Source: Dokdonia sp. Dokd-P16
Lineage (GTDB): Bacteria > Bacteroidota > Bacteroidia > Flavobacteriales > Flavobacteriaceae
Length of the DNA: 64,000 nt
Reading direction: 5' to 3'
NCBI RefSeq assembly: GCF_003095655.1
Contig: NZ_CP029151.1
Coordinates: 2,789,001-2,853,000, forward strand
Below, piece by piece: positions 45,426 to 63,908 of this stretch. The translations under genes were made by a program, and so were the position numbers. A model generated the notes under the pieces. That model made no database searches. It was not told the DNA's origin and saw nothing but the letters and a program-made list of their open reading frames with translations. The stretch's first letter is position 1. Every line of letters begins with the position of its first letter.

Positions 45426-46484
45426 CTAATGATTCTCTGAAACTCTAGCCGAAAGAATCCCATCGCCTATTATCTCCTGAATGTTTTCCTTGTCCTCTGT
45501 TGTGATTTCAGGATTTGCAACATCAATATTTACCATAGGAAATGCTATGTTATAGTACATAGCAAAATGATCTGACCCAAAATAAGCTAGTCGCTTCATG
45601 TTTGTTACATGAAGATCTTTTGAGTAAAATAAATGGTCAAGAGGGAATCTGAGTAACCAATAATTTGCATGAAAGGAAGGGTAGAGACCACGGCCTACGC
45701 GTGGATCTAGATACCCAGTGATTTTACTAAAAAGTCTAGAAGTCTTAGACCATACCACATCATTGAGATCACCGCAAACTACGGTTGCATCTTTGGATTC
45801 TCTACATTGCTTACCTACAAGCATCAACTCTGCATCACGTTCTTTTGAAGTCTCGTTTTCTGATGGACTAGGAGGAGCAGGATGTATTGCTATAAGATTA
45901 AAAGGCTGCTCTGCATACGTTATCTCGCAGTGTATGGATGGGATATCCTTTTCTACAAGATATTTTATCTCTGATGATTGAAACGGAATTTTTGAATATA
46001 CATGCATTCCATAAAAATTATCTAGTGTAGCTTTTACGGTGTGAGTATACTCTGGAAAAGCTTGAGATATTTCGTTGTCCCACTTTTCGTCAGACTCCAT
46101 GGTGATAAATATGTGAGGATTGCTCTCCTTTATGATTGTTATAAATTTATCGTAGTTCGTGTTGGTCTGTAATACATTTGCGGTCACAAGAGTGAGCTGT
46201 TTTTTGTGGAACTCTGCCTGAGGTTTACGTCTATGATAGAAAGGTGTGTAGGGTCTTATAAGCCATAATTGAAATAAAAGAACCGCTATCATTACAGCTA
46301 TAAAAATAATATGTGTGACAGTGAAGACCTCCCAAGATATAAATGCAACTCCCAATAATAGTAGCTGAATAACTACTGTTTGAATTCTCACAAAATCAAA
46401 AAAGCGTATACTCCAGTGCGTAGCCGGAAGCAAGGGCAGTAGTGGCCCTATGATGAATATTGAGAAGAGTAGTAGTAGTATCAT
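45426..46484 (-). CDS. Membrane-anchored endonuclease/exonuclease/phosphatase-family protein, copy 1
   Basis: This 352-residue protein has three N-terminal membrane helices and an EEP (DNase I-like) domain. Motifs are LVTANVLQTNTNYDKF, a catalytic Glu in ITMESDEKW, AIHPAPPSPSENET, GDLNDVVWS and the final SDHFAMYYN (Asp-His). EEP proteins hydrolyse phosphodiesters in nucleic acids or phosphoinositides; the substrate here is unknown. A close paralog lies at 60857-61951 (TANVLQ, AIHP, LDPR(V/I)GRG, PLDHLF and SDHF are shared). It follows a TlpA-like gene on the same strand, with a terminator between. Confidence 0.85.
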   Translation of the reverse strand: MILLLLFSIFIIGPLLPLLPATHWSIRFFDFVRIQTVVIQLLLLGVAFISWEVFTVTHIIFIAVMIAVLLFQLWLIRPYTPFYHRRKPQAEFHKKQLTLVTANVLQTNTNYDKFITIIKESNPHIFITMESDEKWDNEISQAFPEYTHTVKATLDNFYGMHVYSKIPFQSSEIKYLVEKDIPSIHCEITYAEQPFNLIAIHPAPPSPSENETSKERDAELMLVGKQCRESKDATVVCGDLNDVVWSKTSRLFSKITGYLDPRVGRGLYPSFHANYWLLRFPLDHLFYSKDLHVTNMKRLAYFGSDHFAMYYNIAFPMVNIDVANPEITTEDKENIQEIIGDGILSARVSENH

Positions 46485-46552: not shown

Positions 46553-47689
46553 CTATATTTCTCCTAATAGCTCTTTCATTTTTGCTCCTAGTGCAGGACC
46601 TCTTAGGTCTTTTGCTATAATAACTCCATTTTCATCTAGTAAAAATGTCGCAGGGATTGCTCTTACTCCATAACTTCTAGGGATAGGATCTTGCCAAAAT
46701 TGTAGGTTTGAGACATGGTACCAGTCCATTTTATCTTTTTCTATAGCTTGTAGCCATCTTTCTTTTTGATCTGGTCTATCAAGGGATACACTTATGATGT
46801 TAAGACCTTTATCATGATATTGATTATACACATTTACAACATTAGGATTTTCCATGCGACAAGGGCGACACCATGAAGCCCAAAAGTCAATGATGGTGTA
46901 CTTGCCTAAAGTTTCAGAAAGGGAAAGTTCTTTACCTTCTGGAGTTTTTGCGCTAAACTCTGGAGCTTTATTTCCAATACTAGCAAGACCGCTAGCGATA
47001 CGTTGTGACTTGAGCTGTGCTATATAGTTCTCTACACTTTCTCCCACAGTGGAGTTTTGAATATCTTCAGAAAGACTATTGTAATATGCTTCTGACTCTT
47101 CAATCTTTAAAACTTTCTCATTTATTAAGTCAGATAGTGCAATTACCGAGACCATTTTATCTGTATTATCCTCTACGACTGCTTTTTTATCAGTAATAAA
47201 TTGCGCATCCATCGTTGCTATTTGGTCGCGTATCATGTTTACCTTAATTCCATCTGTTTCTCTTTGTGCCTTTTGCATCTCTTGAATAAGTTGTTGCCTT
47301 TTCTTATTGCTCTGCATTGCAGTCTTACGATAATTATTAAACAACTCATTTTCTATACTACCTGTGACTAAAGAGCTAGATAAGCTATCTTTGTAAAGTG
47401 TTAAGGTAAGTGGCTGCACATCTTTTACTAGTAAAAGTTGGCTAGTAGCTGTTGCTTCACTTAATATTAATAATCCAGTACCCTGGGTTATGGCCTTTGT
47501 AAATGCAAATGCACCAGCATTTACAACGGCAGTATCTAAAGGAATACGTCTATTGTTAGGACCTAATTCCTCTAAGATAAGTGAAGTGCCATCAGCCATA
47601 CCAGCTGCTGTACCTTTTATAGGAGTACTATTATTATCTCCGCAGGAGTATAAAGAGAATAAAATTACAAGAATTAGTAATTGTTTCAT
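46553..47689 (-). CDS. TlpA-like thioredoxin lipoprotein with DUF4369 domain
   Basis: This 378-residue lipoprotein (signal ending SLYSCGDN) has a DUF4369-type N-terminal domain (about 25-130). A helical linker and a C-terminal TlpA/ResA-like thioredoxin domain follow, with WASWCRPCRMENP (active CRPC) and AIPATFLLDENG (cis-Pro). It probably reduces disulfides or apocytochrome cysteines in the periplasm. DUF4369-thioredoxin fusions are common in Bacteroidetes, but their targets are unknown. A reverse-strand TATTTTTG box lies 22 bp upstream. A second TlpA-like gene lies at 62556-63908. Confidence 0.9.
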   Translation of the reverse strand: MKQLLILVILFSLYSCGDNNSTPIKGTAAGMADGTSLILEELGPNNRRIPLDTAVVNAGAFAFTKAITQGTGLLILSEATATSQLLLVKDVQPLTLTLYKDSLSSSLVTGSIENELFNNYRKTAMQSNKKRQQLIQEMQKAQRETDGIKVNMIRDQIATMDAQFITDKKAVVEDNTDKMVSVIALSDLINEKVLKIEESEAYYNSLSEDIQNSTVGESVENYIAQLKSQRIASGLASIGNKAPEFSAKTPEGKELSLSETLGKYTIIDFWASWCRPCRMENPNVVNVYNQYHDKGLNIISVSLDRPDQKERWLQAIEKDKMDWYHVSNLQFWQDPIPRSYGVRAIPATFLLDENGVIIAKDLRGPALGAKMKELLGEI

Positions 47690-47718: not shown

Positions 47719-47770
47719 AGGTTTACAATTATTAATATAGAGAAGTAGAGGAGTTTTGAAGACCCAATTT

Positions 47771-50158
47771 ATGAAAACCGGAGTACATTTTAAAGATCAA
47801 GAGTTTCCACTAGAATTAAATTTTAGTGTAGGGAAGTTAATGAGTCATTATAAAAACAATCTTACCTCTAATAATTTAAGATTGAAAAGGCGTGCTACAG
47901 AAGTAATGGAAATTATTTCTACCTATCCAGAATTAGAATCAGGAATAAATAAGCTGGATACCCTAGAAAATTATAGTGATCAGATAGATGAACTTTTAAG
48001 TGATCTATTTCCAGATGCACTGCAACAGAACGAAATAAAAATTGCGTCTATGCCTTTTCAAGAGGCTGTGCTACAATCTACCCAGAGATACGACAATATA
48101 CTTCTCAATGCTGGAGATAATTTTATTCCAGAAATTAAGAATTTTAATGAAGACCACTATTACCTTATGGGCTGCAGTATTATTCTTATGCAGTACTATG
48201 GATTTAAAATAGACTTTAGACGTCCTTTTTACTATGAAATTCCTGACGGTCTTAAAATGACACGTTTTTATAGAATGCTCTATAATGGAGATTATATAGA
48301 CATAGAACGCAAGGAAGGAACCCCTCAAATAACAGAGGACGAGGTAAACATACTATTAGATAACTTTGATAATATAGAAATGTGGAAAGAAAAGTTTCCT
48401 CCACATAGCTATGTTTTTAAAGGGTTTGTAATAGCAAATTTATATGATGCCACAACAGAAGTAGCGATATCTGACTTCAAATCTGGCTTGCTACGTTATG
48501 AGGAAGAAGACATCAACTTTACAGACGATTTTCATAGAATTTTTCAAGCAATTTTTGATCTTCCAGAACTTCAAATTGGTTTTTCAAATTACAATCAAGA
48601 AGATGAGGCTTTTGAACTTGTTCCTTTTAAAGATATAAGCAGTTACCTTTTATATGGTGACACAGAGGCCTCTTGTAACACCATACTTTGTAAGGGCTCT
48701 TATGATGCAGTTTTTAATACAGGCGATTATTTTGCTGTATCAGATATTGCAAAGCAGCATAAAAAGGATAAAGGCATAAAGATGTATCAAAATCTATATG
48801 ACCAGGGCATAAAAAGTGTTATTCTAGCTCCTATTCGTCATAAAGGTGTGTTACTTGGTATCTTAGAACTTGCCTCTCCTAATAAAGGAGCGCTTAATAG
48901 CATAAACGCAAATAAGCTTGCAGATGTAATGCCTTATCTTATTGATGCCGTTTTACGTAACAAAGAGCAGCAAGAAAATGAGATAGATCTTATCATTCAA
49001 AACGAATGTACTTCTATTCATAAAAGTGTGTACTGGAAGTTTGAAAAGGAAGCTAAACGTTATTTAAGACTGCAAATAGAAGGCGATAGCAATGTGCAGT
49101 ATAGGGATGTAGTGTTTAAAGATATTTATCCATTATTTGGACAGATTGATATAAAGGGCTCATCTGAGTCTCGTAATGCTGCTACCCAAAAAGATATTCT
49201 ACTGCAGTTACATAATGCTATTGCAATACTAGAAGCGGCTAAGACTAATGAAAGTCTACCTATTTATGAACAGCTTATATTTAATCTAAATGTATTTTTA
49301 GATAAGACAAAAGAAAAGTTAGAAGTAGATAGCGAACGCAAGATTTTAAATTTCTTGAGTGAGAATATTAGACCATTATTCACCCATTTACTTAAGAAAA
49401 GTGACGAGCTTAATGAATTAATTACAGCATATAGAAGTCAGATAGAAGATAGTCTTGGCCTTGTGTATCGCCATCGTAAATTTTATGATGAATCTGTAAT
49501 GTTATTAAATAAGCGTCTAGCATCAGTATTGCAGCGCAAACAAAAAGAGGCACAGATGATGTACCCTCACTTTTTTGAACTCTTTAAAACAGATGGAGTA
49601 GAGCATAATATGTATATAGGTGAGTCTATAACCAAGCATAATAGCTTTAATAAGATTTATCTCTATAACTTACGTTTATGGCAACTTCAAGTAATGTGTG
49701 AGATGGAAAATGAGCATTTCTCGCTTGCGCAAAAAATGGATCACCCACTTGAGGTAGCTTCTATGATTCTAGTCTTTAATACTTCCTTATCTGTACGATA
49801 CCGTATGGATGAGAAGAGATTTGATGTAGATGGAACCTATAATGCTCGTTACGAAGTAGTAAAGAAACGTGTAGATAAGGCCTTTATTAAAGGGACAACA
49901 GAGCGTATTACACAACCTGGCAAAATCACTATTGTTTATTCACAAGAAGCAGATGAGCAAGAGTACCTTAGATACATTAACTTCTTACAGTTAAAAAATC
50001 ACCTTGGTACCGAAGTAGAAATTCTAGAGCTAGAAGATTTACAAGCCGTTACTGGTCTTAAGGCTATACGAGTAAACATACTATACAAAAAAGTGATAGG
50101 TAAGAAGACAAAAGAGTTTTACACCTATGAAGATCTCATTGAAGAAATAAAAAATTAG
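47771..50158 (+). CDS. GAF domain-containing protein, large, uncharacterised
   Basis: This 795-residue soluble protein has a GAF-like domain in the middle (about 265-415). It contains QNLYDQGIKSVILAPIRHKGVLLGILELASPN, typical of GAF core strands. The flanking regions are mostly helical with no kinase, cyclase or HTH motifs. The C-terminal third (VRYRMDEKRFDVDGTYNARYEV) is conserved in appearance but unrecognised. It could sense a small ligand and bind a partner; there is no fused output domain. ATG 47771 is preferred over TTG 47756. A bidirectional terminator lies behind it. Confidence 0.75.
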   Translation: MKTGVHFKDQEFPLELNFSVGKLMSHYKNNLTSNNLRLKRRATEVMEIISTYPELESGINKLDTLENYSDQIDELLSDLFPDALQQNEIKIASMPFQEAVLQSTQRYDNILLNAGDNFIPEIKNFNEDHYYLMGCSIILMQYYGFKIDFRRPFYYEIPDGLKMTRFYRMLYNGDYIDIERKEGTPQITEDEVNILLDNFDNIEMWKEKFPPHSYVFKGFVIANLYDATTEVAISDFKSGLLRYEEEDINFTDDFHRIFQAIFDLPELQIGFSNYNQEDEAFELVPFKDISSYLLYGDTEASCNTILCKGSYDAVFNTGDYFAVSDIAKQHKKDKGIKMYQNLYDQGIKSVILAPIRHKGVLLGILELASPNKGALNSINANKLADVMPYLIDAVLRNKEQQENEIDLIIQNECTSIHKSVYWKFEKEAKRYLRLQIEGDSNVQYRDVVFKDIYPLFGQIDIKGSSESRNAATQKDILLQLHNAIAILEAAKTNESLPIYEQLIFNLNVFLDKTKEKLEVDSERKILNFLSENIRPLFTHLLKKSDELNELITAYRSQIEDSLGLVYRHRKFYDESVMLLNKRLASVLQRKQKEAQMMYPHFFELFKTDGVEHNMYIGESITKHNSFNKIYLYNLRLWQLQVMCEMENEHFSLAQKMDHPLEVASMILVFNTSLSVRYRMDEKRFDVDGTYNARYEVVKKRVDKAFIKGTTERITQPGKITIVYSQEADEQEYLRYINFLQLKNHLGTEVEILELEDLQAVTGLKAIRVNILYKKVIGKKTKEFYTYEDLIEEIKN

Positions 50159-50202: not shown

Positions 50203-51444
50203 TTATAAAAGTGTTGACATCACATTAGTGAGGCCTTCTACATCCTCCATGACTTCTACCGCTTTATCTCTGTATGCAAAGAACACCGCAAATGTGAGTA
50301 CGGATATAATGATGCCCACCATAAATATATTGTAGGTAATTCTTAATAGCTTGTATTTTCTATCGAGTACAACTCCGAGAAAGTATAAATCTTTAGTAAG
50401 GGCAGAATATATGTATTCTTTATCTTGAAGCATTTCTCCTATAGCCCATTCATAATCTTCAAGTTTCATTTTATGAAAATTGCCAAAAAATAATAGGTTT
50501 ACTTTTTTAAGCTTTACATCCTCTCTATCAAACTCTCCCCTCGTGACATTAGGTCGCGTAGCAATGATTGACATAATCATTGATATCATGGCAAAAAGAA
50601 CAAATACTGCTGTAGGGTAAATAAGGTGAGCATTACTAGGAGACTCTAGTTTAGGAATCAGGTTTGCAAGAGCAAGGGAAATCACAATGGCATTTACAGA
50701 TAGAAGGATGTTTGCCTTAGTATCTGCAATGTCACTTAACTTAATGTGATTACGCAGCGCAATACGATACATAGATTGTATTCCTTTTTCTGGGCTTGCA
50801 TCTTTGAGCTGTACTTTTAGTTTCTCCTTTTTGCGTGCCTTTTTAGCCTTTTTTCTTGCTTTGGTAAGGTCGTTTAGGTTGTTATCTTTTTTCGGTTTCC
50901 AGTTTTCTTGAGCATAATGCGTATAATATCGATGTTTTATAGTGAACATCTCAATATTTGCTTTATTCCATTCTTCTGTAGTAAACTCCTTTATGCCTTT
51001 AATTTTCAATTCTTGACGCAAGTATTCACTAGCCTCAGGAAAATAATCCTTAGCAAAATGTGAGGCATCTGCATCTCTTAAAACTTGTTCAAGGTACGTT
51101 TGAGGTTCTACACGCATGTCTGTGGCAAGAATCACTTTTTTAACCTCTTCTATAATAGAAGTCTCAACGCCTTGTTCTTTTAAAAAAGTTTCAGCCATTT
51201 CGGCGCTACGCGCTTCGTGATCTTTTGTACCATCTACATATCCTATGTCATGTAGTAGTGCGCTAAGCTGTAAAATTAGCTTTTCTTCATCTTTAAGACT
51301 TTCTTCACTATTATCAATTATTTCTTGGGTACTTTTAAGTACTCGTTTGGTATGGACATAGTTATGATATATACATGTCTTAGGTAGTTCATTATCAAAT
51401 AGTTCAGAAATAAATCTATCTGTCTTTTCTAGTAGTTCAGTCAT
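50203..51444 (-). CDS. HD domain-PycTM fusion (Pycsar effector-like)
   Basis: This 413-residue protein joins an N-terminal HD phosphohydrolase domain (residues 25-130: H31, H65-D66 in LLHDIGYV, D124 in RDADASHF). A basic linker of about 25 residues (DLTKARKKAKKARKKEKLK) leads to a C-terminal PycTM/DUF5706-like region (225-400). PycTM is recognised by the core DIADTKANILLSVNAIVISLALA plus ATRPN and three membrane helices. PycTM proteins kill or depolarise cells when they sense cCMP or cUMP from a partner cyclase; none is encoded in this window. The HD domain could process nucleotides that set its activity. The role as effector is inference. Confidence 0.72.
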   Translation of the reverse strand: MTELLEKTDRFISELFDNELPKTCIYHNYVHTKRVLKSTQEIIDNSEESLKDEEKLILQLSALLHDIGYVDGTKDHEARSAEMAETFLKEQGVETSIIEEVKKVILATDMRVEPQTYLEQVLRDADASHFAKDYFPEASEYLRQELKIKGIKEFTTEEWNKANIEMFTIKHRYYTHYAQENWKPKKDNNLNDLTKARKKAKKARKKEKLKVQLKDASPEKGIQSMYRIALRNHIKLSDIADTKANILLSVNAIVISLALANLIPKLESPSNAHLIYPTAVFVLFAMISMIMSIIATRPNVTRGEFDREDVKLKKVNLLFFGNFHKMKLEDYEWAIGEMLQDKEYIYSALTKDLYFLGVVLDRKYKLLRITYNIFMVGIIISVLTFAVFFAYRDKAVEVMEDVEGLTNVMSTLL

Positions 51445-51470: not shown

Positions 51471-51480
51471 AATGTACATT
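51471..51480. promoter_or_regulatory. Shared 10-bp palindrome upstream of phosphoesterase paralog A
   Basis: AATGTACATT, preceded by TCT, ends 12 bp before the start. The identical site lies before paralog B (59086-59095). Confidence 0.4.
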
Positions 51481-51492
51481 AAAAACAAGGAC

Positions 51493-54400
51493 ATGAACAA
51501 ATATTACCGTTTTCTTAACTTCTCAGTAGCAATTTTGCTCAGTAGTTGTGCGACTTATTCTCCCAAATATGCAGAGAAATCAAGTGAGCCTTCTCGTTTT
51601 GATAATAGTTCGCTTTCGCGAAAGCGTATACATAAAACCTTCTATCTTATAGGAGATGCAGGAGGAGATAAAGATGGTGGTAGTACTTATGCTCTAGATG
51701 CTTTCAAAAAGGTAATAGACACTGCACAAACAGAAAACGATTATGCAATCTTTTTAGGTGATAACATTTATGATGCTGGACTTCCATCAAAAAACAACCC
51801 AGAAAGAGCCGAAGCTGAGCGCAGGTTAGACATACAAGTAGCAGCAGTCGAAAATTTTAAGGGTAAAACTATTTTTATTCCTGGAAATCATGACTGGTAC
51901 GCAGATGGTGTAGAAGGTGTAAAGCGTCAAGAGAAATATATAGAGGATGCGCTAGATGATAAGGAAGCATTTCAACCAGAAAATGGATGTCCTATTGAAA
52001 TGAAAAGCATAAGCGACTCTGTAGAATTGATGATCATTGACACACAGTGGTATCTAGAAGACTGGGACAAACATCCTACAATTAATGATAATTGTGATAT
52101 TAGAAATAGAACCGATTTATTTTTAGAAATAGAAAATGAGTTCAAAAAGAATAACGAAAAGACAATTCTTGTAGCGATGCACCACCCTATGTACACAAAT
52201 GGGATACATGGTGGTAAATATGGTATAAGAAAGCAGTTGTATCCTTCTCAAAGTAATCTACCGCTTCCAGTACTTGCGTCTCTTGTTACTCAAGTAAGAT
52301 CACAGGGAGGAGTATCAATCCAAGATCGTTATAACAAGCAGTATAATGAGTTAATGCAACGCATATCTGTACTTGCGAGAGATACAGACAAAGTAATTTT
52401 TGCATCAGGACATGAGCATAGTATCCAGTATATAGAGCATGATGGTATAAAGCAGATTGTGAGTGGAGCAGGAGCAAAGAACAGTGCCGCGGCTTTAGGA
52501 GACGACGGTTTGTTTTCTTACGGAGGTCAGGGATTTGCTATTTTAGACATATATGAAGATGAGTCTTCATCTGTAAGATTTTATGCAGCAAATCAAGGAG
52601 AACCTACGTTACTATACACAAAAGAAGTTTTTGCACCTCGCAAGGAAGTAAACTTAGATTCGTTACCAGAAATATATCCAGAGACTGTTATGGCTACGGT
52701 ATATGCACAGAATAATACAGATGTGTCTGATGTACATGAGTCATTATGGGGAGATCATTACAGAGCGGTTTATGGAACACCCGTAACTGCTAAGGTTGCA
52801 ACACTTGATACACTCATGGGCGAATTTACAGTGGATCGTAAAGGTGGAGGTCACCAGACGAGATCATTAAGACTTAAGGATAAAGACGGGAGAGCTTATA
52901 ATTTAAGAGCAGTGAGAAAAAGCGCCGTGCAGTTCTTGCAAAGTGTTGCCTTTAAGGAGGTTTTTGTTCAAGAAGAATTCAGAGATACATTTACAGAGGA
53001 TTTGATTTTAGACTTCTATACATCTGCACATCCATATGCTTCCCTTGCGGTGGCAGAGCTGTCTGATGCTGTGGGTATTTATCATACAAACCCAAGCTTA
53101 ATTTATGTTCCAAAACATGAGGCACTAGGCAAGTACAATGCAGATTACGGGAATGAACTATATATTATAGAAGAACGCCCAGACGAAGATTTTCTAGATG
53201 TACCATCTTTTGGAAACCCTGATAGTATTGACAGTACAGATGATCTTTATGAAAACCTACGTAAGGATGAGAAGTATCAAGTAGATGAAAACTCTTATTT
53301 ACGAGCACGTATTTTTGATATGCTTATAGGTGACTGGGATCGCCATGCAGACCAGTGGAGGTGGGCGCGTTTTGATAGTGATGGAAAGAAAATATACAAG
53401 CCTATTCCAAGAGATAGAGATCAGGTTTTTTCAAAATTTGATGGTGCTATTTTAGGTTTACTCAAAACATTAATTCCAGCGTCTAGACAGTTTCAAAATT
53501 ATGATGGAGACCTTGAAAACGTAAAGTGGATAAACGAGGCAGGTATAAAAATGGATAGAGCGCTCACAAAGAATTCTGTAAAGAGAGATTGGATTGCACA
53601 AGCTCAATACATTCAAGATAACCTTAGTGATGAAGACATCGCGAGAGCATTTACAAAACTACCTCTCGAAGTACAAGACGTAGGTGTAGATGAGATTAAG
53701 AAAAGCCTTAAAGAACGTAGAGGTAACATTGTTGACATCGCAGGTGAGTATTATGATTATCTAGCGTCGCTAGTGGTACTTACGGGAACAGATAAGGATG
53801 ATCATTTTGAAATAACTCGTAACGATAAGGAGACTAGAGTGCAAATCTCAAGAATTAAAGATGGAGAAGTTCAAACTCCTTTTGTAGATCGTGTTATAAA
53901 CTCTGATGAGACTGGTGAGATATGGATTTACGGACTTGATGATGATGATAGTTTTAAAGTAAGCGGAGAAGGTAAGTCGCCTATAAGAATGAAAATTGTA
54001 GGAGGGCAAAACAACGATATTTATGAGATAAAAGATGGACGTCGTCTTAAAGTATATGAACATAAGACGCTTCCTAATACAATTAAAGAAAAAGGGGGAG
54101 CAAGTTTTAAAATGTCAAATATCTATTCATTTAACACCTATGATCCTTTAAAGAAAAAGAGTTATGCAAATAACATTTTACCAGCCATAGGTTTTAATCC
54201 TGATGACGGTTTTTTAATAGGAATAAATGACGTCTTTACAACTAATGGATTTAAAGATGATCCATTTAGTAGTAAGCACACGGTAAATGGAACTTACTCT
54301 TTTGCTACGGAGTCACTCAACTTGAAGTATGAAGGAAGTTTTGCAAACGCCTTTGGACAATGGAATTTAATAGTAGGAGGGAAGTTTACAAACGAAGCTT

Positions 54401-55215
54401 TCTCTCGTAACTTCTTTGGTTTTGGTAACGAAACTGTAAACAACGATGATGATTTAGGGCTTGACTTTAATAGAGTTCGTAATGGAGAAATAGGCGCACA
54501 TATAGGGGTAGAGAGTGATAATACCTTTGGGAGTAGATTACGATTTGTATTTAATTATGAGCGTATTGAAATAGAACCTACAGGTGGCCGAGTGATAGAT
54601 GACGCTAGTTTATTTTCACCAGACCGCAGTAATTTCTTTGGAGGACAATCTTTTATAGGCGTAGAAGGAGCTTACACTTATGTAAGTGCAGATAACCAAG
54701 CTAACCCTACGAGAGGGATGGATTTTGCAACTATAATTGGAGCAAAGCGCAACATAAGCGATGGCAGTAGAATGTATGCTTATGTAAATCCTAAACTAGG
54801 TTTCTACAATGCACTATCTAAAAACAGAAAATTAGTTCTCAAAACACTTGTACAAGCTCAAGTGCGTATAGGTGACGATTATGAATTTTATCAAGCTGCA
54901 TCATTAGGTGCAAATTCTGGTTTGAGAGGATATAGATTTAATAGATTTACCGGAGAATCAGCACTCGCTGGTTCGGCAGATTTGAGGTATAGTTTTAATA
55001 GATTTTCTACAGGTTTAATTCCTATCCAAATAGGTGTTTTTGGTGGAGGAGATGTAGGTCGTGTATGGCTTGATGCAGAAGATAGCGAGAAGTGGCACAA
55101 TGACTTTGGTGGAGGTTTCTGGTTAAATATGATAGATACCGTATCTGGACAAATAGGTGCTTTTTCTGGTGAAGATGGCGTGAGAATTGATTTTAGATTT
55201 GGTGTAAGATTGTAA
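51493..55215 (+). CDS. Phosphoesterase/kinase-like/outer-membrane barrel fusion, copy A
   Basis: This 1240-residue lipoprotein (signal ending LLSSCATYS) has three parts. (1) A calcineurin-like phosphoesterase (about 45-330) with intact ligands G54-D55, G89-D90-N91, G131-N-H-D, H230-H231 and G306-H-E-H. (2) A region (about 440-720) whose motif order resembles CotH/HipA-like kinases: GGG (451-453), K476 in RAVRKS, GDWDRH (613-618) and PRDRDQVF (639-646). (3) A C-terminal barrel (about 900-1240) with the L6-like GLRGYRFNRFTGESALAG and a final RIDFRFGVRL strand. A palindrome copy reads LSRKR near residue 42. The kinase and barrel assignments are inference. The substrate is unknown, possibly cell-surface phospho-groups. 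Confidence 0.75.
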   Translation: MNKYYRFLNFSVAILLSSCATYSPKYAEKSSEPSRFDNSSLSRKRIHKTFYLIGDAGGDKDGGSTYALDAFKKVIDTAQTENDYAIFLGDNIYDAGLPSKNNPERAEAERRLDIQVAAVENFKGKTIFIPGNHDWYADGVEGVKRQEKYIEDALDDKEAFQPENGCPIEMKSISDSVELMIIDTQWYLEDWDKHPTINDNCDIRNRTDLFLEIENEFKKNNEKTILVAMHHPMYTNGIHGGKYGIRKQLYPSQSNLPLPVLASLVTQVRSQGGVSIQDRYNKQYNELMQRISVLARDTDKVIFASGHEHSIQYIEHDGIKQIVSGAGAKNSAAALGDDGLFSYGGQGFAILDIYEDESSSVRFYAANQGEPTLLYTKEVFAPRKEVNLDSLPEIYPETVMATVYAQNNTDVSDVHESLWGDHYRAVYGTPVTAKVATLDTLMGEFTVDRKGGGHQTRSLRLKDKDGRAYNLRAVRKSAVQFLQSVAFKEVFVQEEFRDTFTEDLILDFYTSAHPYASLAVAELSDAVGIYHTNPSLIYVPKHEALGKYNADYGNELYIIEERPDEDFLDVPSFGNPDSIDSTDDLYENLRKDEKYQVDENSYLRARIFDMLIGDWDRHADQWRWARFDSDGKKIYKPIPRDRDQVFSKFDGAILGLLKTLIPASRQFQNYDGDLENVKWINEAGIKMDRALTKNSVKRDWIAQAQYIQDNLSDEDIARAFTKLPLEVQDVGVDEIKKSLKERRGNIVDIAGEYYDYLASLVVLTGTDKDDHFEITRNDKETRVQISRIKDGEVQTPFVDRVINSDETGEIWIYGLDDDDSFKVSGEGKSPIRMKIVGGQNNDIYEIKDGRRLKVYEHKTLPNTIKEKGGASFKMSNIYSFNTYDPLKKKSYANNILPAIGFNPDDGFLIGINDVFTTNGFKDDPFSSKHTVNGTYSFATESLNLKYEGSFANAFGQWNLIVGGKFTNEAFSRNFFGFGNETVNNDDDLGLDFNRVRNGEIGAHIGVESDNTFGSRLRFVFNYERIEIEPTGGRVIDDASLFSPDRSNFFGGQSFIGVEGAYTYVSADNQANPTRGMDFATIIGAKRNISDGSRMYAYVNPKLGFYNALSKNRKLVLKTLVQAQVRIGDDYEFYQAASLGANSGLRGYRFNRFTGESALAGSADLRYSFNRFSTGLIPIQIGVFGGGDVGRVWLDAEDSEKWHNDFGGGFWLNMIDTVSGQIGAFSGEDGVRIDFRFGVRL
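51611..51626. repeat. Iterated palindrome inside phosphoesterase paralog A
   Basis: CGCTTTCGCGAAAGCG, perfect 16 bp, in frame as LSRKR just after the signal peptide region. Confidence 0.93.
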
Positions 55216-55253
55216 TAATCTTTAATAGCAAGACTCTAAGATCTCGCTATAAT

Positions 55254-55292
55254 GCATAAAAAAAGCTCCCTATTTGGGAGCTTTTTTTATGC
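55254..55292. terminator. Bidirectional terminator between phosphoesterase paralogs
   Basis: 17-bp perfect stem (GCATAAAAAAAGCTCCC and its complement) with loop TATTT, between the two convergent paralogs. Confidence 0.9.
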
Positions 55293-55365
55293 GTAATATT
55301 TTTCAACCTGTAGGTTGTGCAAGATTAAGATTTAACTTTTTACTAGTGGGTGAATTTTTTATTCA

Positions 55366-55403: not shown

Positions 55404-58400
55404 TTATAATCCTAGTGAAATTCCGAAGCCTAGTCGCCCACCTTCTGGTCCGTTAAAATAGTTTAGAGTTCCTTTTAGTGCACCAGCAGTAGACACATTA
55501 AGACCGCCACCGTAGCTATAATGTAGTGTGTTGCTTTCCATGAGCTCACTCCATACTCTTCCTGTATCATATCCAGCATAGGTATCAATTCTTATTGGAA
55601 AGAAAGCTGTTTTTATAGGCTTAAATAAGTAGGCTATATCTACCGAGCCTGCTAGTGATTGCTGGCCAATGAAACGGCTTTGTCTGTAAGATCTCAATCC
55701 ATTGTTTGCTCCTAAGGTTGCCGCTTTGTAAAAAGGTATTTGATCTCCTATACGTAGCTGACTCGTCACAGTTGTTTTAATCACAAGATTTCTTGATCTA
55801 TCAATGGCATTCCATAAACTTATACTCGGATCTATAATCCCAACAGTATTTGTATTTGTAAGTTCATCAAGGAACCCTCCTTTTAATGATACTTCCATAC
55901 CTCGAGTGGGAAATTGCTCATTGTCTATACTGCGATAGTTATAATAACCACTCACTCCTAAGTATTGCACAGCTGTTATTAAGGGCTCATTATTTAATAC
56001 TGTATCTATATTTTCATAAGTGATGTTTACACCTGTGCTGGTTCCATACTCTCCATCGTAATAGAGACTAACACCACCTGTAAGATATTGCGTATTGATA
56101 CGATTATCATCAAATGATCTGTTCTCATTAGTACTACTGTTTCCTAAGCCAAAAAAGTTCTCTGTAAAATTTGCTGTAGTCGCTCGTCCAAAAGCTTTAA
56201 AATTCCAATCGTGGAAGAGGTGTGCTTTATGCCAAGCTATTCTTACATCTGCGGCTTGAGTAAGAGAAATATAGCGCGCATCTAATTCAAATTTTGTTGT
56301 AAACGGATTTCCTTCAAAGCCTATTGTAGATTTACTGAATTTGAACCTTGGAGTAATTCCTTCGTCAGGGTTATAAGATGTTTGGAGTGCAAAGCGACCC
56401 GCCTTATCTGGTCTACGCTCTGTATCAAAAATGCGATTCTCATAAATGTCATCTATGTGCCTAGTTGCCTTTCCTTTATTTATGATATTATTTTTAGAAG
56501 ATTTTTGGTCATAGAGCGTGACATTTTTTCCTCCTTCAATAGTATAACTATCATTATCCAGTCCTCCTGATAAGACAATATTTATAGGACTCTTTAATAA
56601 TCCTTGAACATTAAAGACATCTTTGTCATCAAGACCATAAATCCAGATATCATTTGTGGTTTCTGATGAAAATGTGCGGTCAAAAAGTAATGCGCCTTTT
56701 TCACCATCTTTTATTCTATATCCCATTATGTGCACATCACCATTATCAAGATTTGTGATGTCAAAATGGTCATCTTTATCTGTTCCTTTTAATACTTGAA
56801 ATTTAAGGAAATGATTGTAGTATCTATCTACGATATCGCCTAGGCGATCCTTACGAGCTAGTAAATCTGCCTGAATACCTTTCCATATATTATCTTGAAT
56901 TTCTATCGGTGCTTCGCTAAATGCTTTTGAAACAACTTCTGGCGTAATATGCTGTTGAATGTATGCAACTTCTTCAAGCCACACAGACTTATCTGATCGC
57001 AAAACCAAAGAGCGATCAAGATTAATTGCACTCTCACTAAATTGCTCTACATAAGGAATATCTGGACCATAATTTCCAAACTGTCTCATGCCGCTCATTA
57101 TACCTTGCATACGAGTTAAAAACTCACCGTCAAACTTTGCAAAAACTTGATCTCGATCACGAGGTACTGCACTATAAATCGTTACACCTTCCTCTTCGTC
57201 AACTTGGCTTTGTGCCCAGCGCCATTGATCTTCATGTCTATCCCAGTCACCTATGAGCATATCAAAAATACGAGCTCTTATGTAGGTTCTCTCATCTAGT
57301 TTGTGCTGCTCATCCTCTCTAAGTTCTTTAAAGAGATCTTGGGTACTTTCTACCTCTTTGCTAAATTTAAACATATGTGATTTATCAAAATCACCATCAG
57401 GCTTTTCTACAATCATATATAACTGATCACCGTGTACTTTATTAAAATCACCCAGTAACTTTTGCTTAGGTACATAGAATAACTTAGGATGCGTATGTGG
57501 TAATTTTATCGCACCAGCTAATCTTGGAATGGCAAAAGCACCATAAGGATGTGCAGCCGTGTAAAAATCTTGAATAATAGTTGCTGGAACAGTGCCAGCA
57601 AAATAATCATCTGCATCAAGGTCATTATACCCAGCAGATTTTAGAAAGGCGATAGGGTCTTTTGCAATGGCTCGCATATTATATTCTTTATCGTCCTTTG
57701 TTACAAGACGTAACCCATTAGTCTGGTTTCCACCACCGGCTCTTTCTACCGTAAGTCCTCCATATAAGGTATCAAGTAATACTACAGGCGCCTCAATTTG
57801 TACTCCATATACGTAGCGATAATGTTTACCCCAAAATTTTTCATACTTCTCAGATTTCTTTACAGCCTCTGCAGGATACACAGATGCTGTCATTGTTTTT
57901 GGAAACACAGTAGGAAGAGCATCAAGGTTGTAAGGTTCCGGTTGTTTAAAAGCTTGCTGACTAAAGGCTTCTTTAAAAGCACCGTTTTGTAATGTAAAGA
58001 AGTGAACAGAAGATGAGTTATCTTCATAAATCCTTACTTCTGTATATCCAGGCTTTGTTGAGGTAAACAGCCCTCTTTTACTTAATCTAGCAGGCTTAAC
58101 ACTACTTCCGGTTCCTGATATTACTTGCTTTATTGCACCATGATTTATATACTGTAGGGAGCGCTCGTGACCAGAGACTATAATAACTTTAGGAACATCA
58201 AATGCAGCTTGCTCTATAGAGGTCATTAATTCATTCATGAGCGGATTGTTACGATCTTGCTTAGATAATCCTCCTTGAGCTCTTAAAAATGACCAGGCAG
58301 CTCCAGCAAATGGTATAAATGCATTTTCTGACGTGGGCTTATAAACTACACTTGACGGGATTTCTCCTCCATATATTCCATTTGAGTATAGAGGATGATG

Positions 58401-59069
58401 CATAGCAATAAGCACTGTTTTATGTCGTGCTTTACGCATTTCGCTAGCAAGTAATACATTAAATTGAGTGCGCGTTTTTAATTCGCATTTGTCATTAATT
58501 CCTGCCGTTTTACTCCAGTCCTCAATATACCATTGTGAGTTTATGAGTATAAGCTCTATTTCATCGTTAACACTGATAACCTCTAGCGGACAACCATTTT
58601 TAGGTAAGAAGTGATCTTCTTCCTTGTAAAAGTCTTCAATGTAGGTTTCAATATCTTCAAGTCCTTCCACACCGCGCTCATTCCATTCTTGTTCTCCAGT
58701 GAGAAATAAGGAAGTTCCTTTGAAAGACTTAGATAATGACAATTGTGCATCAAGTTGAGGAGCTACTCGGCTATCTTCTAGATTGCTGTTGTGTACATTA
58801 TCTCCTAAAAATAAGAGGTAGTCATCTTCCTTTGATGATGACACAATGTTCTCTTTTAATGCATCTAGCAGCTTGTCATTTGGACCACCTAATGCTGCAC
58901 CAGCATTGGCTATAGAAAATATGCTCGTGTATTCTCTAGAATTGGAGTCAAAAAAAATGCTATTCTCCTTATCTCTATAATTATCACGATGGACAGCGCA
59001 GGCTATAAATAGCAGTGACAAAGTAGATAAGGACAAGGATTTACTAAGGCAGCGTAATTTTTTATTCAC
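55404..59069 (-). CDS. Phosphoesterase/kinase-like/outer-membrane barrel fusion, copy B (degenerate phosphoesterase)
   Basis: This 1221-residue lipoprotein (signal ending LLFIACAVHRD) is a paralog of the gene at 51493-55215 along its full length. Its phosphoesterase domain has lost metal and catalytic residues: A54-N55 replaces G54-D55, G125-E-Q-E replaces G-N-H-D, and GHERS (300-304) replaces G-H-E-H. GDN (89-91) and HHP (224-226) remain. The kinase-like motifs are kept: GGG, RAIAK, GDWDRH (607-612) and PRDRDQVF (636-643). The barrel ends GRLGFGISLGL. It probably acts as a pseudo-phosphatase or retains only the second activity. The genes converge on a shared terminator and are about 190 bp apart. 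Confidence 0.75.
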   Translation of the reverse strand: MNKKLRCLSKSLSLSTLSLLFIACAVHRDNYRDKENSIFFDSNSREYTSIFSIANAGAALGGPNDKLLDALKENIVSSSKEDDYLLFLGDNVHNSNLEDSRVAPQLDAQLSLSKSFKGTSLFLTGEQEWNERGVEGLEDIETYIEDFYKEEDHFLPKNGCPLEVISVNDEIELILINSQWYIEDWSKTAGINDKCELKTRTQFNVLLASEMRKARHKTVLIAMHHPLYSNGIYGGEIPSSVVYKPTSENAFIPFAGAAWSFLRAQGGLSKQDRNNPLMNELMTSIEQAAFDVPKVIIVSGHERSLQYINHGAIKQVISGTGSSVKPARLSKRGLFTSTKPGYTEVRIYEDNSSSVHFFTLQNGAFKEAFSQQAFKQPEPYNLDALPTVFPKTMTASVYPAEAVKKSEKYEKFWGKHYRYVYGVQIEAPVVLLDTLYGGLTVERAGGGNQTNGLRLVTKDDKEYNMRAIAKDPIAFLKSAGYNDLDADDYFAGTVPATIIQDFYTAAHPYGAFAIPRLAGAIKLPHTHPKLFYVPKQKLLGDFNKVHGDQLYMIVEKPDGDFDKSHMFKFSKEVESTQDLFKELREDEQHKLDERTYIRARIFDMLIGDWDRHEDQWRWAQSQVDEEEGVTIYSAVPRDRDQVFAKFDGEFLTRMQGIMSGMRQFGNYGPDIPYVEQFSESAINLDRSLVLRSDKSVWLEEVAYIQQHITPEVVSKAFSEAPIEIQDNIWKGIQADLLARKDRLGDIVDRYYNHFLKFQVLKGTDKDDHFDITNLDNGDVHIMGYRIKDGEKGALLFDRTFSSETTNDIWIYGLDDKDVFNVQGLLKSPINIVLSGGLDNDSYTIEGGKNVTLYDQKSSKNNIINKGKATRHIDDIYENRIFDTERRPDKAGRFALQTSYNPDEGITPRFKFSKSTIGFEGNPFTTKFELDARYISLTQAADVRIAWHKAHLFHDWNFKAFGRATTANFTENFFGLGNSSTNENRSFDDNRINTQYLTGGVSLYYDGEYGTSTGVNITYENIDTVLNNEPLITAVQYLGVSGYYNYRSIDNEQFPTRGMEVSLKGGFLDELTNTNTVGIIDPSISLWNAIDRSRNLVIKTTVTSQLRIGDQIPFYKAATLGANNGLRSYRQSRFIGQQSLAGSVDIAYLFKPIKTAFFPIRIDTYAGYDTGRVWSELMESNTLHYSYGGGLNVSTAGALKGTLNYFNGPEGGRLGFGISLGL

Positions 59070-60856: not shown

Positions 60857-61951
60857 TTAATCACTAGAAATTATAGGCATTTCCATATTGAGGAGATTTT
60901 GTTCTTTTAATTGTGACTGTGCTCTGTCTAGAATTTCCTGAGATGGTTTTTCTGCTTTTTGTTCTTTTGCTTTCTCTGGTTCAAAAGTAAGTTCTGTGTA
61001 CATGGGAAAATGGTCAGACTTAATATCTTTTGTACGGTTTAATGTTTGCACGCGAAACTCTTCCGAAATAAATAAATGGTCAAGTGGCCATCTCATCAAT
61101 ACATTTTTTGCATTAAAAGTATTATAAAAACCACGACCTATGCGAGGGTCGAGTAATGTGCTTGTTTTTCTAAAGAGTGAAGTAGTTTCAGACCATGCGA
61201 CATCATTAAAATCACCCATGACAATCACTGGCATTTTTCTTTTATAAACGCGCAATGCAGTGGTCATCATTTCTGTATCCCTGTCTGAGCTCATTGGGTT
61301 ATGCTGTGGCATAGGTGGCGTAGGGTGGATGGCAAATAATTGAAATTGATTACCACTCTCCAAGGTAACAATCGCCTCCATAGACGGTATTTCCTTGTCT
61401 ACTAGGTGTCTTATGTGTTCATCACTTATAGGTAATCGCGAGTATAGCAACATTCCATACGTATTGTCTAGCGGCTCCAGCATAAAATAAGGATGTGATG
61501 CAGATAAAGTGTTATGCACAGCATCTTGCCACTTCTGGTCTGTTTCCATGAGCAATACGATGTCTGGATTTTTTTCTTTTACTTGATTGAGAAGTAAATG
61601 ATACTCTTCATTCTTCTGTAATACATTGGCTGTATAAATTTTTAATGTATTTGACGAGTCAGTAATTGTGCTTTCTTGAGCTTCAAAATCTGCAAACGGC
61701 GTATAAGCATAAATCTTACTTAGCTGAAATAAGAAACAACCTATAAGAATAACTACAAAGAGATAATCTTTATAGTACTTAATGTCAAATTTTATAAAGT
61801 ATGTGATAATTGCAATAAGCGTTAATCCCGTAAGCTGTGCATGCGGAAAATCAAAAATGCGTATCCACCAGTAATCTATAGCGATGAGTGGTAACAATGT
61901 TAAAACAACAGCGGTAATGCCAAATCCCTGAAGAAAACTCTTTAATTTCAA
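60857..61951 (-). CDS. Membrane-anchored endonuclease/exonuclease/phosphatase-family protein, copy 2
   Basis: This 364-residue paralog of the gene at 45426-46484 has N-terminal membrane helices and an EEP domain: TANVLQKNEEYHLL, LLMETDQKW, AIHPTPPMPQHNP, GDFNDVAWS, LDPRIGRGF, PLDHLF and SDHFPMYTEL. The acid/base pairs are conserved in both copies, so both are likely active. Substrate unknown. It is probably co-transcribed with the MEMO-family gene 34 bp downstream. No canonical promoter or terminator was identified between them. Confidence 0.85.
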   Translation of the reverse strand: MKLKSFLQGFGITAVVLTLLPLIAIDYWWIRIFDFPHAQLTGLTLIAIITYFIKFDIKYYKDYLFVVILIGCFLFQLSKIYAYTPFADFEAQESTITDSSNTLKIYTANVLQKNEEYHLLLNQVKEKNPDIVLLMETDQKWQDAVHNTLSASHPYFMLEPLDNTYGMLLYSRLPISDEHIRHLVDKEIPSMEAIVTLESGNQFQLFAIHPTPPMPQHNPMSSDRDTEMMTTALRVYKRKMPVIVMGDFNDVAWSETTSLFRKTSTLLDPRIGRGFYNTFNAKNVLMRWPLDHLFISEEFRVQTLNRTKDIKSDHFPMYTELTFEPEKAKEQKAEKPSQEILDRAQSQLKEQNLLNMEMPIISSD

Positions 61952-62555: not shown

Positions 62556-63908
62556 TTACACCTTCGATGCATTTTCTATTGCCTGTTCAACCGCAATGGA
62601 AGGTTCTTGGATATTGGCATTTATAATCTTACCATCTTTGCCAATGAGTATGTATTTAGGAATAAAGTTGATATTGTATTGTTGACCATATTCTTCACTT
62701 CGTCCATCTTTAATAAATAAATTGTAACCAAGTTTTGAGTTTTCTTTACCTAAAAACTCTAGCCATTTCTCTTTAGAACTATCTACAGACATTAGCAAAA
62801 TCTCTACATCGCTATTATTTTTATACTTATTAGCAAGTTCTAAAACATTATGCCTGTGATTAAGACAAGCCCTACACCATGTGGCCCAATTGTCTATAAA
62901 AATTACTTTCCCTAGATGATCTTCAAGTTTATATTGATTTCCAGATGCATCTTCTGCTGTAAATAAGTAAGCTTTTTCTCCACTTTGAGAAGCATAAAAA
63001 GAGTTCGATGACTTTTCAAGTAAGTACTTGTATGGGTTTTCTTTTTCTGATATGAGGGCTTGAGTAAGTACCTCAGTGTTAAATAATCTCTCATGCTTTT
63101 CCCAATAAGTAGGTGATTCTATCAAACCTTTGATATAGCTCGCTCTGAGATAATCAGCAAGCTCCTTGTTACTCGTCTGTCTATCTATGAACGCTAAAAA
63201 ATCAGTAATACTTTCAATAGCATCATTTTCTCGCAAATATTCAATTTCATATTTGTAGAGATAAATATCGGGAAGAGATTTTGCTGATAGCGTAAGCTTC
63301 GGAATTCTATGGACGAAATCAAAATAGCTGTTATTTGGTTTTAATTCTTTCATTATTCTGCCATAATAGAATAGGAATGAATAAATTCTCGCATCATTCT
63401 GATAGTGTAGCAATTCTAAAATATTAGGGCCTATTTCACCCTTTAGTAAGTTAATGTTATTTGCTCTCTCCTGTCTGAAAGTTTTAAATACAAGCGGAAT
63501 TGTATCTATGTTATTAGAGCCAAAAAGTAAATTACTGTTTTCACTTATAAACTTGTTGTTGCTGTGCCATAGATAGTTGAGCAATGAATCTACTTTATCA
63601 TGAGTGTTTATAATACCATCTTGATTAAGAAAAATGTTTAAATTTTTATTATCAGCTAGAATAGCCAGATAGGGATCATCATTATTTTTGTGATTTATAG
63701 TTACTGCCGTAGGATGTGGCAAGTCTACAATTTGTATTCTGCTGCTATTTCAAATTTTAGCAATGAGCTTATCAGTATTAAATTCTGAAATATAGATGGT
63801 ATCTATAGAAGTCTCAGTTTGCAAACTTATTTGTGCAGGGTTGTTTTGGTTTTGACAGCCAACTAATGAACATATAACTACAACTAGTAAAAGACTTTTT
63901 AGATTCAT
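62556..63908 (-). pseudogene. TlpA-like lipoprotein gene with in-frame TGA
   Basis: From ATG 63908 the frame encodes a lipoprotein signal (NLKSLLLVVVICSLVGC, Cys18) and continues without shift into the thioredoxin-domain protein. A TGA at codon 53 (63750-63752) interrupts the frame, between LIAKI and NSSRIQIV. The remaining part has a helical region and a C-terminal TlpA-like domain with FIDNWATWCRACLNH (CRAC) and FIPKYILIGKDG. Without the stop the product would be about 450 residues. The TTG at 63722 would lose the export signal. Nonsense mutation, sequencing error or readthrough are the options. Confidence 0.78.

Follow-up and report, generated by a model that had tools for sequence, protein, structure and literature searches.

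The succession of a phosphatase-like domain and an Omp85-type barrel in one polypeptide was noted in 2014, in the section on the Omp85 'Metallo' subfamily by Heinz and Lithgow (PMC4104836). Two genes with an apparently similar architecture, copy A and copy B, are neighbours in a stretch of 64,000 nucleotides, here called the window, of Dokdonia sp. Dokd-P16 (NCBI RefSeq assembly GCF_003095655.1, contig NZ_CP029151.1, positions 2,789,001 to 2,853,000, forward strand). As in the 'Metallo' section, a PF00149 domain precedes a putative Omp85 barrel, and the family extends across Bacteroidota in our data; the Pfam match is found in copy A only and not in copy B. Unlike here, where the domain resembles purple acid phosphatases (P), that section calls it a metalloprotease, and the word 'kinase' is absent from the main text, whereas in both copies a kinase-like domain (K) lies between P and the barrel. 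Degenerate copies are described neither in the 'Metallo' section nor in the passages of that paper considered. The P-Omp85 architecture is therefore already known. No prior description of the K domain, of the reciprocal loss reported below, of pseudo-phosphatase or pseudo-kinase classes or of their complementarity was found in the open-licence literature, and the main text of two 2025 papers on the Bacteroidota barrel assembly machinery (BAM) and of a TamL paper mentions no phosphatase, phosphoesterase or kinase. A Riemerella metallophosphoesterase (Niu et al. 2021), considered as a family member, is listed among type IX effectors in a review table (PMC10202324) and was hence taken as another protein. 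We propose that the family has subfunctionalised, copies A and B and their relatives dividing P and K labour, and put the probability of this reading, drawn from sequence comparison, at roughly 0.58.

In the following, a capital letter stands for an intact motif set and a small letter for a broken one: PK copies have both sets intact, pK copies combine a pseudo-phosphatase with intact kinase motifs, and Pk copies an intact phosphatase set with a broken kinase. The two copies are laid out as follows (positions in the window).

51472..55215, + strand: copy A, 1247 amino acids (aa), with lipobox, P domain, K domain and Omp85-type barrel; class PK, neither motif set being broken
51607..52626, + strand: P domain of copy A (residues 46-385), purple-acid-phosphatase-like, Pfam Metallophos E 2.2e-9
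51649-51666, 51751-51771 and 51883-51897, + strand: P motifs IGDAGG, FLGDNIY and GNHDW of copy A (exact motif search)
52180-52188 and 52408-52419, + strand: P motifs HHP and GHEH of copy A (exact motif search)
52645..53841, + strand: K domain of copy A (residues 392-790), kinase-like, predicted kinase fold in an AlphaFold model
53329-53346 and 53407-53430, + strand: K motifs GDWDRH and PRDRDQVF of copy A (exact motif search)
54169..55212, + strand: Omp85-type barrel of copy A, approximate, NCBIfam NF047779 E 2e-16, under its cut-off
55404..59069, - strand: copy B, 1221 aa, GTG start, architecture as copy A; class pK, predicted pseudo-phosphatase with intact kinase motifs
58896..58913, - strand: IANAGA of copy B, loss of the first ligand motif by Asp-to-Asn exchange (alignment and motif search)
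58791..58811, - strand: FLGDNVH of copy B, Asp retained, ligand Tyr to His (alignment and motif search)
58683..58697, - strand: GEQEW of copy B, with Glu for the ligand Asn and Gln for His (alignment and motif search)
58392..58400, - strand: HHP of copy B, retained (alignment and motif search)
58158..58172, - strand: GHERS of copy B, second His of GHxH to Arg (alignment and motif search)
57234..57251, - strand: GDWDRH of copy B, intact (motif search)
57141..57164, - strand: PRDRDQVF of copy B, intact (motif search)

The loss of P motifs in copy B is confirmed. Copies A and B are 38% identical over their full length in a pairwise alignment, so a position-by-position comparison is sound. A first-pass annotation, which numbered copy A (1247 aa as listed) from Met8, had assigned to copy A G54-D55, G131-N-H-D and G306-H-E-H and to copy B the degenerate counterparts A54-N55, G125-E-Q-E and GHERS, with HHP retained in B and GDWDRH and PRDRDQVF unchanged between the copies. 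Exact searches, complemented by the alignment for the losses, recovered all of these, within IGDAGG, GNHDW and GHEH in copy A and within IANAGA, GEQEW and GHERS (G300) in copy B. The annotation also stated that GDN remains in copy B. These three residues are indeed kept, but the Tyr three residues past the GDN Asp, which binds iron in purple acid phosphatases, is present in copy A and in 197/197 intact relatives, whereas copy B has His in its place and 63/80 degenerate relatives have lost it. Copy A possesses the complete purple-acid-phosphatase ligand set (D62 D97 Y100 N139 H140 H237 H314 H316), whereas copy B lacks five of these eight positions and retains only Asp90, His224 and His301. Pfam Metallophos (PF00149) matched copy A with 38.5 bits against a cut-off of 21.5, and the Pfam search matched no family in copy B. 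Orthologues from eight further Dokdonia genomes, which share 65-96% identity with B, show corresponding ligand losses, and hence the loss in B is neither chance nor artefact. The B gene of an uncultured Dokdonia locus is 82% identical.

An AlphaFold model of the P and K part of copy B (predicted local distance difference test, pLDDT, 85.7) placed its P domain close to human tartrate-resistant acid phosphatase (PDB 2bq8; Z 28.2, 266 residues, 2.8 Å) and Plasmodium GAP50 (PDB 3tgh; Z 27.0). Taken with the lost ligands, this match makes the P domain of B a predicted folded pseudo-phosphatase; by predicted fold only, copy B is a pseudo-member of the purple acid phosphatases. Its P domain shares the fold of tartrate-resistant purple acid phosphatase (PDB 2bq8, 1ute), of which copy A has the full ligand set; unlike that enzyme, B is without most ligands, and P is fused here to K and a barrel. 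GAP50 is described, in passages of PMC4427158, as a membrane-anchored motor-complex component with a calcineurin-phosphatase fold, which is like that of the P domain of B. Unlike copy B, it has neither a kinase domain nor a barrel. GAP50, which is not known to keep catalytic activity, may serve as a model for the role of the P domain of B.

The K domain of copy A was modelled by AlphaFold2 with 79 aligned relatives (pLDDT 88.1; predicted template modelling score, pTM, 0.88). The top Foldseek matches in the PDB were CtkA (E 5e-6), CotH (7e-5), HipA and PI4K-II alpha, with E values from 5e-6 to 5e-4, and a second aligner returned PI4K-II beta (Z 15.0, 248 residues, 4.2 Å), CotH (14.9), CtkA (13.8), HipA (11.3) and Fam20C (10.4). 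The label 'kinase-like' of the first-pass annotation thus agrees with the fold matches of this model to PI4K-II, CotH and CtkA (Z 14-15). D623 of GDWDRH and D648 of PRDRDQVF lie on either side of a beta hairpin (strands 238-245 and 248-255 in model numbering), and both have equivalents in copy B. From this order, rather than from superposition, we infer that D623 corresponds to the catalytic-loop Asp and D648 to the metal Asp of kinases. The K domain shares the fold, and the order of catalytic-loop Asp, beta hairpin and metal Asp, with the CotH, CtkA, HipA and PI4K-II kinases; unlike these, it sits in an outer-membrane protein, and no Pfam kinase family matched the K domain of A over its cut-off. 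FAM198 (PF15051) was discarded, as it reached 13 bits against a gathering threshold of 25, with E values of 0.23 and 0.047 (chance level) and a match at E<=1 in 1 of 79 family members. Enterochelin esterases, the sole matches in a profile search of PDB sequences (E 0.1 and 2), were likewise taken as chance. Sequence alone failed to place K, and the predicted fold settled its placement. The catalytic-loop region of K in both copies also gave a weak match to the PADLOC candidate-defence model PDC-M03A (E 0.0015-0.005), which probably reflects common kinase motifs.

Relatives were gathered by whole-genome searches, a named-genome scan and region fetches. Open reading frames (ORFs) shorter than 850 aa and within-genome duplicates were excluded before classing; hence pK copies below 850 aa, if any, were missed. 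Copies were taken from part of the 142 genomes that had matched, 60 of the 300 copies come from loci without a whole-genome search of their genomes, genome-locus assignments were made by hand and, with at most three candidates scored per genome, copies per genome are a lower bound. Scored at seven phosphatase ligand positions and five kinase positions, the 300 copies comprised 197 PK, 80 pK, 17 Pk and 6 undecided ones, and no doubly broken copy was shown among them. Thirty-seven copies from order and phylum searches (L350-L386) all kept the ligands and the scored kinase positions; some of them repeat genomes that the set contained before, and L350 is copy A itself. Two single family copies, L334 (G207) and L335 (G076), are apparently broken by a stop or frameshift, with their readable ligand positions intact. 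Together, sequences and models suggest a Bacteroidota outer-membrane family in which P is followed by a HipA/CotH/PI4K-II-like K domain and an Omp85-type barrel. In copies A and B the C-terminal matches to the Omp85-type model NF047779 are weak (E 2e-16 and E 5e-9, both under the 200-bit cut-off). A lipobox is seen by inspection near the N terminus of both (SSC in A, IAC in B) and was found by a simple pattern in 198/300 copies, positions +2 to +5 after the Cys being mostly A-T-Y-K. The surface-export signal of this phylum is acidic after the lipobox Cys, which A-T-Y-K is not, and thus the periplasmic side is favoured.

The classes differ in what they retain. At most one of the seven phosphatase ligands is left in 25/80 pK copies, and the His of GNH(D/E) is gone in 77/80. 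Asp90, His224 and His301 of copy B and its intact predicted fold would suit an enzyme with a different metal site or chemistry; the ligand counts are those expected for loss, however, and the substitutions differ among pK clades, so that we hold such an enzyme to be very improbable. A charge swap replacing the metal in B (Glu for the Asn ligand, Arg for the last His) is not claimed as general, the combinations being unlike in other pK clades. Kinase motifs follow the opposite course: 80/80 pK copies retain DRH and the two Asp of RDRD, while among Pk copies the His of DRH is lost in 17/17 and the metal Asp (D648) in 16/17. Retention in one class and loss in the other indicates metal-dependent catalysis of some kind. 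This argues against a K domain that only binds nucleotides or is kinase-like by fold but differs in its reaction (AMPylation, glutamylation or the use of donors other than adenosine triphosphate, ATP). The kinase fold superfamily does include AMPylating, glutamylating and similar enzymes, and the lipobox or membrane anchor and the adjoining barrel place K outside the cytoplasm, where ATP is scarce; we view this alternative as somewhat unlikely.

At sequence level, division of labour is well supported by the distribution of these classes among genomes. Of 160 genomes, 60 had more than one copy and 100 had one copy in hand. At least one intact phosphatase and at least one intact kinase motif set were present in 60/60 multi-copy genomes, whereas shuffling the class labels among their copies (10,000 trials) gave a mean of 42.7 and a maximum of 51. 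Every Pk-bearing genome had a pK copy as well (17/17). Single-copy genomes comprised 95 PK, 3 pK and 2 undetermined cases, and in the three apparent lone-pK genomes the missing copies were found whole or as contig-edge pieces: G070 has a PK copy (L330), G227 has, beside its pK copy, one piece with P intact (L331) and one with K intact (L332), and G221 has one piece with P intact and one whose kinase is broken, matching the expected pK-Pk-pK operon. Degenerate copies were thus never found alone. In independent pairs, P loss accompanied another P copy in 6.4/7 and the reverse never occurred (median p 0.03). The first-pass annotation had suggested one bifunctional and one pseudo-phosphatase copy, and had asked whether degenerate and intact copies are always paired. 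Such pairs exist, but the picture is broader, as the reverse class Pk occurs in tandem with pK in 14/17 genomes; and constant pairing holds for degenerate copies but not for intact ones. Since intact copies are often solitary, pairing appears to be needed by the degenerate copy.

Trees were built from kinase and barrel columns, omitting the kinase motif columns. For 46 representatives of the 300 copies under a mixture model, the pK label changed at least 7 times on strongly supported branches and the Pk label 3 times (8 and 3 changes, respectively, with FastTree on all 300 rows), and a single origin was rejected by the approximately unbiased (AU) test for both P loss (p-AU 8e-76) and K loss (7e-8). 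Copy B falls in a clade of 18 rows that is sister, with support of 100, to the genes in last position of pK-Pk-pK operons. In 14/17 Pk genomes the Pk gene adjoins a same-strand pK gene, forming pK-Pk(-pK) tandems; the spacing is -1 to 20 bp in 11 of the 14 and 61, 66 and 277 bp in the rest; one value of -176 in G118 results from taking the first start codon. Of the other Pk genomes, G093 has pK and Pk as convergent neighbours by coordinates, and in G097 and G228 the two are apart. Two further features of the window lie beside and between the copies.

50203..51444, - strand: membrane protein in which an HD domain is fused to a PycTM domain (DUF5706, Pycsar-effector), oriented divergently to copy A, marking the ancestral locus
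55252..55294, no strand assigned: strong terminator-like hairpin of 19 pairs between the convergent copies A and B

The divergent HD-PycTM gene lies upstream of 53/85 PK genes, of the first gene of 15/15 tandem loci and of copy A. As it is common to PK and tandem loci, the operons seem to have arisen by tandem duplication where the ancestral gene stood. The PK copy occupies this place in Dokdonia, with the pK gene inverted beside it, at clear gaps of 78-654 bp in 8/9 pairs; the ninth has overlapping ORF calls, and a tenth genome of the genus (G013), with B split across two contig ends, was left out of the pair spacing. Copies A and B are the sole family members that the whole-genome search found in the 3.62-Mb genome, and their genes are spaced 188 bp apart. 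Across the loci examined, an HD-PycTM homologue occurs near a family gene in 92 genomes, a possible hint at a functional link to nucleotide signalling, and a GAF-like protein of about 800 aa (47756-50158 in the window) in 83. Flanking the A/B pair on either side are two membrane proteins of the endonuclease/exonuclease/phosphatase family, 38% identical (45426-46484 and 60857-61951, - strand), and likewise two thioredoxin-like proteins (46553-47689 and 62556-63722; 32% identity over 139 residues).

The ratio of nonsynonymous to synonymous substitution rates (dN/dS) of B's P domain among Dokdonia B orthologues was 0.06-0.11 (five of eight pairs with estimable dS), and thus this domain is maintained by purifying selection. 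Its retention, and the company of an intact copy in 60/60 multi-copy genomes, make A and B a candidate pseudoenzyme pair, in which B is predicted to be inactive and A active from their residues. An assembly error or pseudogene is ruled out by the open frame, the orthologues and these ratios. Between distant orthologues P evolves faster than K in B (dN 0.28 vs 0.19, G000-G001), the opposite of the order in copy A (P 0.09, K 0.12); in the pairs G000-G005 and G000-G011, P of B was not faster. Probably, constraint on catalysis is gone from B's P domain and constraint on shape is left. The faster P would also fit neutral subfunctionalisation without partnership, in which one phosphatase is enough, the spare P drifts, and A and B share only ancestry and have unrelated jobs. 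Complementarity is expected under neutrality too, because a needed function can be lost from one duplicate only if the other stays intact, and B-clade copies in other genera are often distant from the intact copy or on another contig. However, the P domain of B keeps its fold under strong purifying selection, pK and Pk genes form tight operons, and 80/80 pK copies are at least 1172 aa long, dead P domain included, though the phylum also has K-barrel proteins that lack P. We therefore consider neutral drift apart the less likely account, albeit one to be taken seriously.

Several observations weigh against a division of labour. Complementarity bears on need and not on contact, because mere redundancy in a cell that requires both functions would give the same pattern. 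K loss provided only three independent pairs, which puts significance out of reach, and by itself it is not significant. One 870-aa ORF (G093_L241), in which the kinase motif is broken and P is absent from the frame, could be doubly lost. Copies A and B are convergent with a terminator-like hairpin between them and hence not co-transcribed, and a kinase outside the cytoplasm would work where ATP is scarce. Furthermore, K need not have this P everywhere. Among 198 genomes drawn phylum-wide, K occurred in 70 and P (E < 1e-30) in 52, both together in 49, P only in 3 and K only in 21 (10 genomes with weaker P matches were omitted from these counts). The K-only genomes, 21 of the 70 K-bearing ones and without a strong P match, mostly have K-barrel proteins of 860-930 aa. 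Nine stand-alone K proteins of about 430 aa were also found (L072:5393-6691, L341-L348), with the catalytic DRH and both Asp present; the three inspected each have an N-terminal hydrophobic anchor, and in Pareuzebyella (L072, L106) the stand-alone K gene lies 1.8 kb from a pK gene.

Under the favoured reading, that the copies divide P and K labour, a duplicate may lose P or K provided that another copy keeps the lost one. P and K would share one outer-membrane target, probably approached from the periplasmic side, K adding a phosphate or other group and P removing it. Copy B, as a pK copy whose P would retain the fold without the metal site and whose K would retain the catalytic and metal-binding Asp, would add K capacity, its dead P domain acting as a binding or docking scaffold, and copy A would supply the phosphatase for both. 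In the operon relatives the split would be complete, with pK for one activity and Pk for the other. A physical heteromer of copies is a tentative extension and seems somewhat unlikely. The same caution applies to the fullest version, an extracytoplasmic writer-eraser at the Flavobacteriaceae outer membrane whose subunits arose by repeated reciprocal inactivation of bifunctional duplicates; here heteromers would use pK as the kinase and Pk or PK as the phosphatase, with dead domains docking the partner's live ones.

If the favoured reading is true, a common and little-studied outer-membrane family of Bacteroidota would have opposing enzymes on one chain, repeatedly split between paralogues so as to complement each other, which would amount to a natural experiment on the role of each domain. 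The system would also point to phosphorylation, or a comparable transfer, that is reversible and takes place outside the cytoplasm, and the question would be open to single-domain mutants in culturable marine strains.

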